Assembly: GCA_009881125.1 (NCBI GenBank)
Contig: WXFH01000011.1
Span: forward strand, 21,700-85,699
Source: Acidaminobacter sp.
Lineage (GTDB): Bacteria > Bacillota_A > Clostridia > Peptostreptococcales > Acidaminobacteraceae
Direction: 5' to 3'
Length of the DNA stretch: 64,000 nt
Part shown: positions 7,440 to 62,026 of the stretch, in pieces
Numbering within the stretch: the stretch's first letter is position 1
How the letters are laid out: each line of letters opens with the position of its first letter
Translations under genes and position numbers: made by a program
The notes under the pieces: generated by a model
Databases searched by the model: none
Told to the model about the DNA's origin: nothing
The model's input: only the letters and a program-made list of their open reading frames with translations

Positions 7440-7745
7440 AATTCTCATTGTTTCCGCCAACAAAAAAACCTTTCGCGCCTGCACTAATGACAAGGGACGA
7501 AAGGTTATTCGCGGTACCACCCTGATTGCCGAGTTCCATGACTCAGCCTCTCAAAACCCTGTAACGAAGGTCAGTCGCCCGAATCTACCAGCTTAGCCCG
7601 GCTTATCAAAAATCCGCTTGTAAGCTTTCGGTCAGGAGCTCAGGGATGTTTTTCATACGGTGACATGACGGCGGGCTCACACCATTCCCGCTTCGCTGGG
7701 GTCAGACAGTCGCATTACTCTTCCCTTCATTGCCAAACACACTAA
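7440..7745 (-). promoter_or_regulatory. T-box leader (tRNA-Asn) of asnS
   Basis: On the minus strand the leader contains the T-box core AGGGTGGTACCGCG (7510-7523). An intrinsic terminator follows (arms AACCTTTCG / CGAAAGGTT plus T7, 7462-7505). Stem I has an AGTAATG-like start, and in the specifier loop AAC (7648-7650) precedes ATCCCTGAGC. AAC is an asparagine codon, in agreement with asnS. Uncharged tRNA-Asn should stabilise the antiterminator and permit transcription. The specifier was placed by pattern matching, not by folding. Confidence 0.9.
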
Positions 7746-40357: not shown

Positions 40358-41638
40358 TTAAGCGACCGTCCCCCGCATCGAGGAATAATTTTCATACAGT
40401 TTTTCATCCATAATCCTGACGAGAGTTTCCACGACTCTAAAGACTTCCGTAAAGGACGTGTACAGCGCGATAGGCGCCAGGCGGATGACATTTGGCGCCC
40501 TGAAGTCCGGCATGACCCCGTTGTCTTTTAGTGCCTGGTTGATCCGCACCGCATCTGAATGCTCCAGCGCCACATGGCCGCCCCTGCGGTGCGGCTCCCG
40601 TGGGTTTCCAACACTGAACCCGTATCCGGTAAGTTTGTCGTCGATCAAAGCCATGAGGTAATCCGTCAGCTTCAGGGACTTTTCACGAATGTTCTCCACC
40701 CCGACCCGGTTGAAGAGCTCAAGAGACCCTTCCAGCGGTGCCATGCTGAAAATGTTCTGAGTACCGGACTGCCAGCCCCCTGCATTTCTGACCGGCTCAA
40801 AAGTATTGAGCAGGTCAAACTGCTTGTCCTTGACGTAGCCCTGCCAGCCGGCGAGGCCCGGATGCAGGCCAAAATGCCGCTTGTTTAAATACAGCGCCGC
40901 GTTCGACCCCGGTCCCCCGTTCAGATATTTATAGGTACACCAGACCGCGAAGTCCACGTCCCACTTTGAAAATTCGTGAGGCACCGCGCCAACCCCGTGA
41001 CAGCAGTCAAACCCTATGATGATGCCACGTTCATGAGCTGTCTGGGTCAGCCTCGCCACATCCAGCAGCTGCCCGCTGCGGTATAGCACGGACGGAAACA
41101 CCGCTATGGCCACATCCTCAGTCATGGCCTCGATCAGCCTGTCCTCATCCAGCGTCCTGCCATCCAGGCTCTTTACTTCCTTGAGCGCCTCCTCAGGCGC
41201 CAGGCCTTTCAGTCTCAGCTGGCTTTCAATGGCGTAGCGGCTTGTTGGAAAGGTCAAGTCGTCGACCAAAATCTTAAAACGCTCAGCCGATGGTTTATAA
41301 AACGTCGCAATCATGGAATGCAGATTCAGTGTCGTATTTGACATAATAGTCACTTCTTCCGGCGAAGCGCCCACCAAACTTGCCATCAGCGCCCCAAGGT
41401 GATCCTGATAGAGAAACAGCTGCGGATTTGTCTTTGTCCAGCAATCAATCCCCATGCGCTTGTAATCCTCCAGGACTCTCAGCAGAGAAGCCTCAGCCGC
41501 TTTCGGAAAAAGTCCAAGTGAATTGCCATCCATATAAATGACCTCATCATTCAGATAAAATTCCTGACGGATCCCTTTCAATGGATCCACGCCGTCCATC
41601 TCAGAAGCAAACATAACACCTTGATCATAGACACCCAT
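40358..41638 (-). CDS. kynU: Kynureninase
   Basis: PLP enzyme cleaving kynurenine to anthranilate and alanine. The 426 residues show IYMDGNSLGLFPKAAE, MSNTTLNLHSMIATFY, IGFDCCHGVGAVPHEF, and the PLP lysine in WCTYKYLNGGPGSNAALY. RRGGHVALEHSDA and IRLAPIALYTSF follow. The MarR-family gene upstream and an operator-like palindrome at its promoter suggest substrate-controlled expression. No tryptophan dioxygenase is present, as expected in an anaerobe. Kynurenine would therefore come from outside, with the formamidase-type gene at 15109 a possible partner. Confidence 0.94.
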   Translation of the reverse strand: MGVYDQGVMFASEMDGVDPLKGIRQEFYLNDEVIYMDGNSLGLFPKAAEASLLRVLEDYKRMGIDCWTKTNPQLFLYQDHLGALMASLVGASPEEVTIMSNTTLNLHSMIATFYKPSAERFKILVDDLTFPTSRYAIESQLRLKGLAPEEALKEVKSLDGRTLDEDRLIEAMTEDVAIAVFPSVLYRSGQLLDVARLTQTAHERGIIIGFDCCHGVGAVPHEFSKWDVDFAVWCTYKYLNGGPGSNAALYLNKRHFGLHPGLAGWQGYVKDKQFDLLNTFEPVRNAGGWQSGTQNIFSMAPLEGSLELFNRVGVENIREKSLKLTDYLMALIDDKLTGYGFSVGNPREPHRRGGHVALEHSDAVRINQALKDNGVMPDFRAPNVIRLAPIALYTSFTEVFRVVETLVRIMDEKLYENYSSMRGTVA

Positions 41639-41738: not shown

Positions 41739-42182
41739 TTAAATACTCTTCAAGTGCTCGTTAATCAGCCTCAGCCACTTCAGCATCAGGCCAGACTCTT
41801 CCTCCGGCAGAAGCCTCAGCTCCTCCCGCTCATAAGCCATCACAACCTCGAAGGCCCGCCCCCGAATCTCCGCCCCCGCCTCCGTCAGGCGAATCTTTTT
41901 AGAGCGCGTGTCCAACTCATCCGTGGTCCGCTGAATCCAGCCCTTCTTCTCCATCAGCTGCAGCATTGGCGTCAGCGTCGCCGCGGACAGCGTCAGCACG
42001 TCCCCCAGCGCCTTCTGGGTCATTTCCTCCTCAACCCAGAGCCTCGACACCACCCTGTACTGCGCAAACGTGATGCCCAGCGGCTCCAGCTGCTTGCTGA
42101 CCGCCACCTGAATTTTCCTGGCAATTTCAATAAAATTGAATCCCATCAAATGGTCATATCCCTGCTTCATCCAACCACTCAC
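41739..42182 (-). CDS. MarR family transcriptional regulator
   Basis: Winged-helix dimeric repressor of about 147 residues. FAQYRVVSRLWVEEEMTQKALGDVLTLSAATLTPML forms the helix-turn-helix, and KKGWIQRTTDELDTRSKKIRLTEAG the wing. It lies 100 nt upstream of kynU on the same strand. The shared operator-like sequence before both genes suggests it represses kynU and itself and responds to kynurenine or a related aromatic. The start (GTG 42182 or ATG four codons later) is not decided by a strong ribosome-binding site. Confidence 0.9.
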   Translation of the reverse strand: MSGWMKQGYDHLMGFNFIEIARKIQVAVSKQLEPLGITFAQYRVVSRLWVEEEMTQKALGDVLTLSAATLTPMLQLMEKKGWIQRTTDELDTRSKKIRLTEAGAEIRGRAFEVVMAYEREELRLLPEEESGLMLKWLRLINEHLKSI

Positions 42183-42447: not shown

Positions 42448-42476
42448 TTGACACGTCCGCAAGACAAGCCTATAAT
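42448..42476 (+). promoter_or_regulatory. Sigma-A promoter of Phe T-box leader
   Basis: TTGACA (42448-42453), a 17-nt spacer and TATAAT (42471-42476) form a perfect consensus promoter that opens the T-box leader. Confidence 0.9.
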
Positions 42477-42482
42477 CACGTC

Positions 42483-42845
42483 AATGAGTTCAGTTCAGGC
42501 TCGCGACCAATTCAAATTGTCATCCAAACAGACGTTGACGGAGAAAAGTACTCGTGCCAAGGCCTTTCAGGGAGGGAATGTCCCAGACTGTAAGCGTTCC
42601 CAGGATCCCGCGCGGCGAAGTTCTCTCCTGAGTTTTCAAGCTGAACCCATCCGCTGTAGGCTTGAACGGTTGCCCCCGTTATAGGGCAGAGGATCCGGAA
42701 TTTGAGCCAGGAAGGCTTTAGTTTCCCGTCTTTCAAAAGTGGGCTTATGGCCTATTGGGGTGGTACCGCGGAAAAACCTTTCGTCCCTTTGCAGAGTTTC
42801 TATTGCAGGGAGAAGGTTTATTTTTTTGTCCCGAAACGAGTAAAG
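42483..42845 (+). promoter_or_regulatory. T-box leader (tRNA-Phe) of paaK-ACT operon
   Basis: Contains the T-box GGTGGTACCGCGG (42759-42771) and an intrinsic terminator (arms AACCTT..CCCT..GCA / TGC..AGGG..AAGGTT, then T7, 42775-42828). In the specifier loop, the position equivalent to AAC in the asnS leader reads TTC (42621-42623), before TCTCCTGAG. TTC is a phenylalanine codon. The leader should therefore allow expression when tRNA-Phe is uncharged. Confidence 0.85.
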
Positions 42846-42902
42846 TCAGTCTGTCTATAGATCTTAAAAGCCATCAGACAAAGCGCACAGGAGGAATCAA
42901 TT

Positions 42903-44207
42903 ATGACAAAGTACTGGAATGAGCCAAAGGAATGCATGACTAAAGAGGATAAGGACCAGCTGCAGCTTGAGCGCCTGCAGGAAACGCTGTCCCGGGCCTA
43001 CCACAATGTGCCCCACTATCGCCGCCTGTTTCAGAAGCAGGGCATTGATCCGGAGGACGTGCAAAGTCTGAGGGATCTCGCCAATCTGCCGTTTACCTAT
43101 AAGACGGATCTGCGCGACAACTATCCTTATGATATGTTTGCTGTCAGCCTCGCAGAGGTCGTCCGGATTCACTCCTCTTCAGGCACTACCGGCAAACCAA
43201 CTGTTGTAGGCTACACCCGCCGCGACCTGAACACCTGGTCGGAGCTCATGGCCAGAGCCCTCACCAGCGGCGGCGCCACTCGACACGACGTCATTCAGAA
43301 TGCTTATGGTTACGGTCTGTTCACGGGCGGTCTGGGTGTTCATTATGGCGGCGAGAAAATTGGCGCGTCCATCATCCCAATCAGCGGCGGCAACACCGAC
43401 CGTCAGGTCATGATCATGAAGGATTATGGCAGCACCATTCTGGCATGTACGCCATCTTATGCGTTATTTCTTGCTGAGACTCTTGAAGATCTGGGTATAA
43501 AGCCGGAAGAGCTGAAACTGAAGTTTGGCATCTTCGGCGCAGAGCCTTGGTCAGAAAATATGCGTCGCGAGATCGAAACCAGGTTAAAGATCAAAGCTTT
43601 GGATATCTATGGACTAAGCGAAATCATTGGACCGGGTGTCGCGGTGGAATGCCTGGAGCAAAAAGGGCTTCACGTCATGGAGGATCATTTCATTGTAGAG
43701 GTTATTGATCCGGCGACCGGAGAAGTGCTTCCAGAAGGGGAAAGCGGCGAGTTGGTCTTCACTTCTCTTACCAAGGAAGCGCTTCCAATTATCCGTTACC
43801 GCACCGGTGATATTTCCCGCATTATTCCGGAGCCTTGTGCCTGCGGCAGAACCCTTCGAAGAATTGGCCGCATCCAGGGCAGAACGGATGACATGCTGAT
43901 CATTCGCGGCGTCAACGTCTTCCCTTCCCAGATCGAGCACGTCCTGCTGCAAATGGGGGATGTTCAGCCGCACTACCAGCTGATTGTAGACCGCGTTGGC
44001 CAGCTTGACCAGCTTGAGGTTCACGTTGAAGTTTCTGAAACCTTCCTCTTTGACGAGGTCCGTGCTCTGGAAGAAACGGCGAGTCAGATCCGCTCCCGAA
44101 TTGAGAGCCTGCTTGGCATCTCAGTCAAGGTCAGGCTGGTAGAACCTAAAACGCTGCCGCGCAGCGAAGGCAAAGCCAAACGCGTCATTGACAACCGAAA
44201 ACTGTAA
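42903..44207 (+). CDS. paaK: Phenylacetate-CoA ligase
   Basis: AMP-forming aryl-acetate:CoA ligase of 434 residues. The P-loop motif [20 protein letters not shown] (from residue 81) is present, as are [50 protein letters not shown], and the C-terminal domain [20 protein letters not shown]. Members accept phenylacetate or indoleacetate. The start follows AGGAGG. It is under a Phe-type T-box and is followed 23 nt later by an ACT protein, an arrangement typical of anaerobes with indolepyruvate/phenylpyruvate ferredoxin oxidoreductases. It could run in the synthetic direction to supply phenylacetyl-CoA for phenylalanine formation. Confidence 0.93.
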
Positions 44208-44230
44208 TCAAGACTGAAGGAGGATTTTTT

Positions 44231-44680
44231 ATGCTGATCAAACAACTGTCCGTCTTTCTCGATAACTCGCCGGGAAGGCTCAACGCCGCCACCAAAGTCC
44301 TTTCTGAAGCCGGAATCAATATGCGCGCGCTTACGCTGGCGGATACTTCTGATTTTGGTGTTCTGCGCGTCATAGTCGACAAGCCCGAGGAGGCTATGTC
44401 CATCCTCAGAAGTCACAACTTCGCGGCAAAAATGACGGAAGTACTCGTCGTCGAAATGGAGGATACACCGGGAGGGCTTACAAAAATTCTCGATATCCTG
44501 GAGGAAGGCGGCATCAACATTGAGTATATGTACGCCTTCGTAGGCACAAAACCGCGCAAAGCGCTGATGATCTTCCGCGTCAATAAGCCAGATGTTGCAA
44601 TAGCGCTTTTGAAATCCAAGGAGGTCCGCTTGTTCAGCACGGAAGAGGACATTGAAGAACTCATCCACGTTTATTGGTAA
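44231..44680 (+). CDS. Tandem ACT-domain protein
   Basis: Small protein (149 residues) of two ACT domains. The first is IKQLSVFLDNSPGRLNAATKVLSEAGINMRAL; the second is EVLVVEMEDTPGGLTKILDILEEGGINIEYMY. ACT domains bind amino acids; in this setting phenylalanine or another aromatic is the likely ligand. It is co-transcribed with paaK after GGAGG. It probably acts as an allosteric or sensing partner. Confidence 0.92.
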   Translation: MLIKQLSVFLDNSPGRLNAATKVLSEAGINMRALTLADTSDFGVLRVIVDKPEEAMSILRSHNFAAKMTEVLVVEMEDTPGGLTKILDILEEGGINIEYMYAFVGTKPRKALMIFRVNKPDVAIALLKSKEVRLFSTEEDIEELIHVYW

Positions 44681-44705: not shown

Positions 44706-44737
44706 AAAAAACCGCTTCATAGGAGCGGTTTTTTTAT
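44706..44737 (+). terminator. Terminator of paaK-ACT operon
   Basis: AAAAACCGCT / AGCGGTTTTT hairpin with seven T, 26 nt after the ACT gene stop. Confidence 0.85.
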
Positions 44738-44949: not shown

Positions 44950-45447
44950 ATGAACGCCATGCTTAAAAAACTGGTTGATCAAGGCTTCATGAATGAAGCA
45001 CAAGGCGCGTACCTTGAAGAGGCAATGGCCCGCAAGGAATCCATGATCGTTTCAGGCCACAAAGGCTGGGGAATCCTGCCTTTGTTCGCGACTATGAGCG
45101 CAGTCGCAAAATCAAGCTTCAGCATCAAGCAAGTCAAAGGCTTTGAAGACCTCGGCGGCGACACACAGTATTATGTCATCGCTGACCTCAAAGACATTGA
45201 TTATGGCAAATTGATTTCCGACGCTATGATGATTCCTGACACTGGCATGATTTGCCTTAAGGATCCGGATCACCCGTACTCCATCATGAAAATTTTTGGC
45301 GACGTCAAGAAGGCCGGCATCGACCAAAGCAAGGTTTTCCAAGTCCTTGAGTGCGCAAAAGAAAACGACGTCAAGTTTCTTGCGAAAATCACCCGCATGG
45401 GCTGGGATGAAAATGGCAAGTTAGTTAAGGAAGATTTTAAAGGCTAA
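44950..45447 (+). CDS. Unknown protein, secretion-ATPase-like without P-loop
   Basis: A 165-residue cytoplasmic protein with a good start (AAAAGGAG before the ATG). Its pattern is YLEEAMARKESMIVSGHKGW, then a GFEDLGGD block, then LISDAMMIPDTGMICLKDPD and HPYSIMKIFGDV. The order and spacing resemble the core of VirB11/CpaF-type secretion ATPases (a SGGTGSGKT loop, an acidic box, then LVRxALRMRPD). The P-loop Gly-Lys-Thr is replaced and no catalytic set remains. I do not recognise a named family. It is monocistronic, with a terminator right after. Confidence 0.75.
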   Translation: MNAMLKKLVDQGFMNEAQGAYLEEAMARKESMIVSGHKGWGILPLFATMSAVAKSSFSIKQVKGFEDLGGDTQYYVIADLKDIDYGKLISDAMMIPDTGMICLKDPDHPYSIMKIFGDVKKAGIDQSKVFQVLECAKENDVKFLAKITRMGWDENGKLVKEDFKG

Positions 45448-61857: not shown

Positions 61858-61911
61858 GACAATACAGCTTTGATCGAGGGTGCGGGGAAACAGCACCATC
61901 GGCAAAAAATC

Positions 61912-62026
61912 AATCTTCTTCCATCCAGACTTTACTGTCGGTTCTGGAATTGCACCAGATCAACCGCGGGAGCGGCTCGTGGACTGTACCACCGGTCGGG
62001 AATTTCACCCTGCCCTGAAGATGTTA
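61912..62026 (-). promoter_or_regulatory. FMN riboswitch (RFN element)
   Basis: On the minus strand the conserved RFN blocks run in order: ATCTTCAGGGCAGGGTGAAA, TTCCCGACCGGTGGTACAG, TCCACGAGCC, GGTTGATCTGGTGCAATTCC and CCGACAGTAAAGTCTGGATG, ending GAAGAAGAT. It represses the rib operon when FMN is plentiful. Confidence 0.96.

Follow-up and report, generated by a model that had tools for sequence, protein, structure and literature searches.

Why should a gene for a presumed phenylacetate-CoA ligase, an enzyme readily taken as catabolic, be switched by the supply of phenylalanine? The question is raised by a stretch of 64,000 nucleotides from Acidaminobacter sp. (hereafter the window), in which a paaK gene and a gene for an ACT-domain protein follow a T-box leader. 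A sequence-only reading of this locus had proposed an anabolic answer, in which phenylacetate is activated and then reductively carboxylated to phenylpyruvate, giving phenylalanine. Here we examine the leader, its recurrence in related bacteria, and the enzymes that such a route would need.

Results

The paaK leader and its specifier

The features of the locus are collected in Table 1. A consensus promoter and a complete T-box leader do precede paaK, as had been claimed: the promoter agrees with the consensus at every position, and the leader matches the T-box model over its full length, above the gathering score of 93 bits. The asnS leader that had been named in the same window was likewise recovered with its AAC specifier, and the column of the Rfam alignment that holds AAC in asnS holds UUC in the paaK leader. 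As such, the assignment of a Phe codon, made at first by analogy between these two leaders, is upheld by the covariance-model alignment, and also by 24 related leaders, with doubt about the register in one of them (L082). Downstream, the terminator-like hairpin behind the ACT gene would close a two-gene operon; it is absent from the list of our terminator scan, perhaps because its stem continues into the T run.

Table 1. Features of the paaK-ACT locus and other elements of the window (positions are those of the window).
Feature	Position	Strand	Evidence
T-box leader of asnS, specifier AAC	7490-7739	-	RF00230, 102.5 bits
Kynureninase gene, near the operon	40358-41638	-	TIGR01814, 358.5 bits (cut-off 246.4)
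MarR-type regulator, flank	41739-42182	opposite to operon	
Sigma-70-type promoter, TTGACA-17 nt-TATAAT	42448-42476	+	12/12 consensus letters
T-box leader, Stem I to antiterminator	42526-42791	+	RF00230, 108 bits, E 6.7e-23, model positions 1-219
Specifier codon UUC (Phe)	42621-42623	+	Rfam alignment column homologous to asnS AAC
T-box sequence with UGGU (acceptor-end pairing; discriminator A of tRNA-Phe)	42758-42770	+	by sequence
Terminator hairpin and U run, overlapping the antiterminator 3' arm	42774-42828	+	-16.2 kcal/mol, z -3.16
paaK, phenylacetate-CoA ligase-like, AMP-forming, 434 aa	42903-44207	+	Pfam AMP-binding, AMP-binding_C_2
Tandem-ACT protein, 149 aa (ACT_8)	44231-44680	+	PF19571, 91.4 bits
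Terminator-like hairpin (AACCGCT..AGCGGTT, T run) 3' of the ACT gene	44710-44736	+	read directly from sequence
165-aa frame, flank	44950-45447		without family match
FMN riboswitch	61909-62026	-	117.9 bits

The nearest genome (G001) is near-identical to the window, with the same leader and the same 149-aa ACT protein, and served as a control set for reading specifiers; among named relatives, Acidaminobacter hydrogenoformans (L025) is the nearest, with 92% identity in the ACT protein and 94% in PaaK. G001 has 24 T-boxes, of which 15 exceed the cut-off. In nearly all of the 24 the specifier, read by eye, fits the downstream gene, e.g. serS (UCC), ileS (AUC), metS (AUG), tyrS (UAC), trpE (UGG) and glyS (GGC), where the gene names are what we take the proteins to be by recognition. 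The register that fits this set is the triplet, one nucleotide, and then the 3' strand of the stem; GAA and the triplet are sometimes directly adjacent, without the nucleotide that otherwise separates them (serS, proS, glyS). Less clear readings are those of L007, with no long gene found downstream, and L022, an ilvB-like gene with a CUC-like triplet, while the CGC of the argS-like L019 follows from the spacing rule only. UUC occurs in this set before pheS and paaK only, in both cases within GAAGUUC, and GAAGTTCNCTCCTGAG is present in the pheS and paaK leaders alone among 134 loci compared. The tRNA-Phe of G001, judged by its sequence, has the anticodon GAA and a 3' end A-CCA that fit the UUC and the UGGU of the leader, respectively. 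The idea that the paaK leader was copied from that of pheS finds no support, since their identity of 0.58 lies within the flat range of 0.46-0.60 that the paaK leader shows to the other 23 leaders of this genome; for the same reason, no origin of the leader can be named. When folded alone, the antiterminator does no better than shuffled sequences, 176 of 200 of which fold as well, which is to be expected of an element that is stabilised by tRNA. Taken together, we hold phenylalanine control of the paaK-ACT operon to be very likely real.

The ligase and its ACT partner

Against TIGR02155, the NCBIfam model for PaaK, the ligase scores 617.6 bits, under the cut-off of 646.3, and it is therefore described here as PaaK-like rather than as a proven member. 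Among solved structures, those closest to it in sequence are phenylacetate-CoA ligases (PDB 2y4o, 484.9 bits), and it probably activates phenylacetate. The ACT protein is well above the gathering score of its family (23.5 bits) and also matches PDB 2f06 (102 bits); by this family match, it may sense an aromatic compound such as phenylalanine. Three genomes (G001, G002 and G044) have, besides the T-box pair (L025 in the case of G002), another paaK-ACT pair that lacks a T-box motif. In G001 this second pair (L221:5725-7439, minus strand, contig G001:C65) is divergent from genes which we presume to be glutamate mutase-like, and its different control suggests that its substrate is another aryl acid.

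Recurrence of the leader on paaK-ACT pairs

Searching with the ACT protein yielded 80 loci (genome records with titles), and in 71 of them paaK lies directly before the ACT gene. A T-box is found upstream of paaK in at least 20 of these 71, which is a lower bound because in six loci (L041, L057, L072, L093, L101 and L102) paaK is preceded by under 450 nt; a looser motif scan had found eight T-boxes beyond those of the first scan. All 20 leaders match the covariance model over its whole length and lie at the same place. Nine are above the gathering score (L025, L026, L032, L033, L039, L055, L056, L073 and L082) and the other 11 score 72.7-89.7 bits, with E 7.5e-14 or better. The specifier is plainly UUC in 19 of the 20, with an extra A before the triplet in L073, and in L082 it is UUC by the spacing rule and UCC (Ser) by the Rfam columns or by counting from GAA.

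Among 61 related genomes, ten have a relative of the ACT protein, and these add three UUC leaders (loci L219, L220 and L223), in G040 (132.4 bits), G051, and one of the two copies of G044 (123.9 bits). Throughout the class, a relative is present in 165 of 293 genomes. From the matches listed there, 40 places were hand-picked down the ranking; paaK adjoins the ACT gene in 26 of these 40, and a T-box precedes just one of the 26 (L323 in G149, UUU or UUC, 107.5 bits). The leader is thus uncommon in the class sample. Like L219 and L223, L323 has a full-length leader, and every one of the 25 leaders read, that of the window included, has a Phe specifier, with L082 as the doubtful case.

In a PaaK tree of 101 rows, the T-box label needs six changes, at least five of which are forced by well-supported branches, and the T-box loci are spread over about five PaaK lineages. 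They form an Acidaminobacter-Tindallia-type group and a group of uncultured Bacillota, and stand as single rows in [Clostridium] viride (L082), G149 (L323) and G044 (L223, whose place is unsure). L057, a row labelled as neither type inside the uncultured-Bacillota group, has only 153 nt upstream. As a separate observation, three loci have a second T-box on the plus strand several kb after paaK-ACT (L033:16449-16661, L055:19039-19284 and L056:16349-16601), at 92.1, 67.6 and 57.5 bits, none of them reaching the cut-off.

Oxidoreductases for the proposed carboxylating step

Reductive carboxylation of phenylacetyl-CoA would call for an oxidoreductase such as IorAB. The iorA gene lies beside paaK-ACT in 29 of the 80 loci, and within 5 kb on the same strand in 18 of the 26 paaK-ACT loci of the class sample, among the matches listed. 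This frequent linkage ties the PaaK-ACT family as a whole to the interconversion of arylpyruvates and arylacetates. None of the 29 carries a T-box, and a motif search found none in, or up to 2.5 kb before, the iorA-linked operon in 52 loci, 46 of which have more than 500 nt before iorA; a weak motif in L326 was discarded, as Rfam gives it no support. Some loci of the two samples behind this count come from one genome (e.g. L065 and L306). The paaK-ACT copies under T-box control are thus the stand-alone ones.

The check for iorAB in the genome, proposed in the sequence-only reading, finds these genes in G001; in the wider set the picture is mixed. Full-length IorA is present in nine of 12 T-box genomes, eight times over the curated cut-off, and was found in none of eight further ones at E 1e-30. 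The search thus left 11 of the 20 T-box genomes, which may be incomplete, without a full-length IorA. These 11 are the genome of L033 and ten that fall into a single sub-group of the tree, and there the route would have to rely on a different oxidoreductase or a different step. POR_N oxidoreductases occur in all 12 genomes tested (the same 11 and G064). Among them is a separate alpha subunit, encoded by a frame of 342-375 aa, which in G067 and G073 stands with beta- and gamma-like subunits; no kinase gene was recognised beside them. According to the available text of PMC13285125, an archaeal VOR is known that acts on phenylpyruvate, though with lower activity, and the step could thus conceivably be done without IorA.

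In G001 itself, the stronger IorAB follows a phosphotransacylase gene, an order that looks catabolic and fermentative. Four other genomes (G066, G069, G068 and G070; loci L195, L196, L198 and L199) have clusters of IorA, IorB and a PaaK-like ligase that is 41-45% identical to that of the window. These clusters adjoin transporter-like genes, and the same genomes also have a paaK-ACT pair with a Phe T-box.

The shikimate branch

The sequence-only reading had placed the phenylacetate route as an alternative to shikimate and looked for an incomplete shikimate branch. This part has to be given up. Prephenate dehydratase (PF00800) was found under all 25 genome handles, which stand for 24 distinct genomes (G002 being the same as G062); 13 of these are T-box genomes, and they cover the genomes of 12 of the 20 T-box loci. 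In G001, an aro-tyrA-pheA cluster at about 24 kb from paaK encodes prephenate dehydratase, DAHP synthase, prephenate dehydrogenase, EPSP synthase, chorismate mutase, shikimate kinase and dehydroquinase. The 24 T-boxes found in this genome all lie outside that cluster. Replacement of shikimate is therefore rejected. With these genes present, a phenylacetate route can only be a supplement, and no genetic need for it is visible.

Discussion

How, then, may the operon serve phenylalanine supply? Uncharged tRNA-Phe(GAA) would pair with the UUC specifier and stabilise the antiterminator, so that the operon would be transcribed when phenylalanine is short; the leader, the specifier and the matching tRNA are seen in the sequences, and the switching is what the T-box family leads one to expect. 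The ligase would then turn phenylacetate, which probably comes from outside the cell, into phenylacetyl-CoA. This would be carboxylated to phenylpyruvate by a 2-oxoacid:ferredoxin oxidoreductase, which would be IorAB here and presumably another type in genomes without IorA, and an aminotransferase would make phenylalanine from the phenylpyruvate. The tandem-ACT partner would probably exert phenylalanine feedback on the ligase, and the whole would run beside the shikimate-prephenate pathway as a supplement. That the operon has a role in phenylalanine supply we consider likely. Salvage of phenylacetate through ligation, reductive carboxylation and transamination is the best single mechanism for this role, and somewhat better than an even guess; its substrate and the direction of its reactions are deduced from the genes and their control. 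The anabolic logic of the sequence-only reading has gained from the repeated Phe T-box control and from the linkage of PaaK-ACT to iorAB, and the available text of PMC13285125 suggests the same direction.

The strongest competitor keeps the response to phenylalanine starvation and gives the ligase another aryl acid, or another step, without reductive carboxylation of phenylacetyl-CoA. This would agree with the ligase being under the PaaK cut-off, with the 11 T-box genomes in which full-length IorA was not found, and with the T-box copies never being linked to iorA by motif search in 52 loci. On the other hand, iorA is a frequent neighbour of the PaaK-ACT family (29 of 80 loci, and 18 of 26 among the matches listed), POR_N oxidoreductases are there in each of the 12 T-box genomes tested, including the 11 without IorA, and phenylacetate-CoA ligases are the nearest solved structures by sequence. 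On balance, we consider this alternative unlikely, while giving it more room than those that follow.

A second alternative is catabolic, with the ligase used in phenylacetate degradation or phenylalanine fermentation and the T-box being incidental. Acidaminobacter is an amino-acid fermenter, and the IorAB beside the phosphotransacylase gene in G001 would suit such a use, but induction by phenylalanine shortage has the wrong sign for it, and the Phe specifier recurs in 25 of 25 leaders (one with a doubtful register) over about five PaaK lineages. PMC13285125, in its available text, bears on both sides: it has IOR involved in the conversion of phenylalanine to phenylacetate in B. thetaiotaomicron, and it describes fermentation clusters as using kinases or ADP-forming ligases. 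A catabolic use is thus improbable. Finally, a decayed or chance T-box without a role, for which nothing speaks except the poor fold of the antiterminator alone, is hardly credible against a match over 219 model positions, the stable terminator, the matching tRNA end, and the full-length leader that stands at the same place in every one of the 20 T-box loci as well as in L219, L223 and L323.

Phenylacetate salvage, the mechanism we prefer, has several relatives among known systems. One is the Phe T-box of pheS type (RF00230), which has the same Stem I, specifier loop, antiterminator/terminator arrangement and UUC within GAAGUUC; there the controlled gene is a synthetase, shikimate gene or transporter, whereas here it is a CoA-ligase-like gene. 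The iorAB-paaK-ACT operons of anaerobes (e.g. the Ruminiclostridium loci L061, L065, L080 and L100) contain a related paaK and tandem-ACT gene in the same order, but with iorAB adjoining and no T-box motif found, whereas the paaK-ACT pair of the window has no iorAB beside it and follows a Phe T-box. The proposed sequence from phenylacetate via phenylpyruvate to phenylalanine is that of the aryl-acid route of methanogens and rumen bacteria, for which T-box control was not met in the literature searched, as far as its available text goes; here the route is proposed from the genes. Phenylalanine can be made from phenylacetate in the rumen, as the available text of PMC7356843 has it, and PMC13285125 cites an IOR operating in reverse in a methanogen.

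The closest comparison is that same paper (PMC13285125, Adv Sci 2026), in whose available text a Bacteroides arylacetate-CoA ligase of the AMP-forming type is described next to IOR. The paper states that AMP-forming ligases typically favour acyl-CoA synthesis and that IOR acts on arylpyruvates, and it suggests a function in aromatic amino acid biosynthesis. The ligase type and the suggested anabolic direction are as in our proposal, whereas the Bacteroides ligase is colocalised with IOR and a T-box is nowhere mentioned in that text. The paper also cites IOR for the opposite conversion, so that arylpyruvate oxidoreductase and arylacetate-CoA ligase may work in either physiological direction in anaerobes. 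A Phe T-box on several ligase lineages, of Phe type in every case read, adds regulatory evidence for the biosynthetic direction. It also suggests that labels such as 'phenylacetate degradation' on genes of this kind can mislead, and that in some anaerobic bacteria phenylacetate is turned back into phenylalanine while the usual pathway is also in place.

As for precedence, no T-box control of paaK or of phenylacetate was met in the literature searched, in so far as its main text was available, so an earlier mention is possible; the term 'phenylacet' is absent from the main text of Wels 2008 and Sun 2013.

In its widest form, our proposal would be that several anaerobic Bacillota lineages have independently placed a dedicated paaK-ACT pair under a Phe T-box, as a tRNA-controlled salvage with shikimate intact, and that together with an Ile-type case in [Clostridium] viride they belong to a broader and so far unrecognised class of T-box-controlled routes that lead, by reductive carboxylation, from fermentation acids back to amino acids. 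We put this forward tentatively, as an idea that may well prove too broad. The Ile-type case is a T-box-like leader in [Clostridium] viride (contig G072:C1, L344:1672-1897, plus strand) with the specifier AUC, which at 81.8 bits is below the gathering score. It precedes a ferredoxin oxidoreductase of the pyruvate/2-ketoisovalerate family, with matched gamma, alpha and beta subunits and a small frame. If real, it would be a second T-box-controlled step of oxidoreductase type in this genome; it could equally serve pyruvate supply, and a possible reading is that of an Ile-controlled reductive carboxylation.
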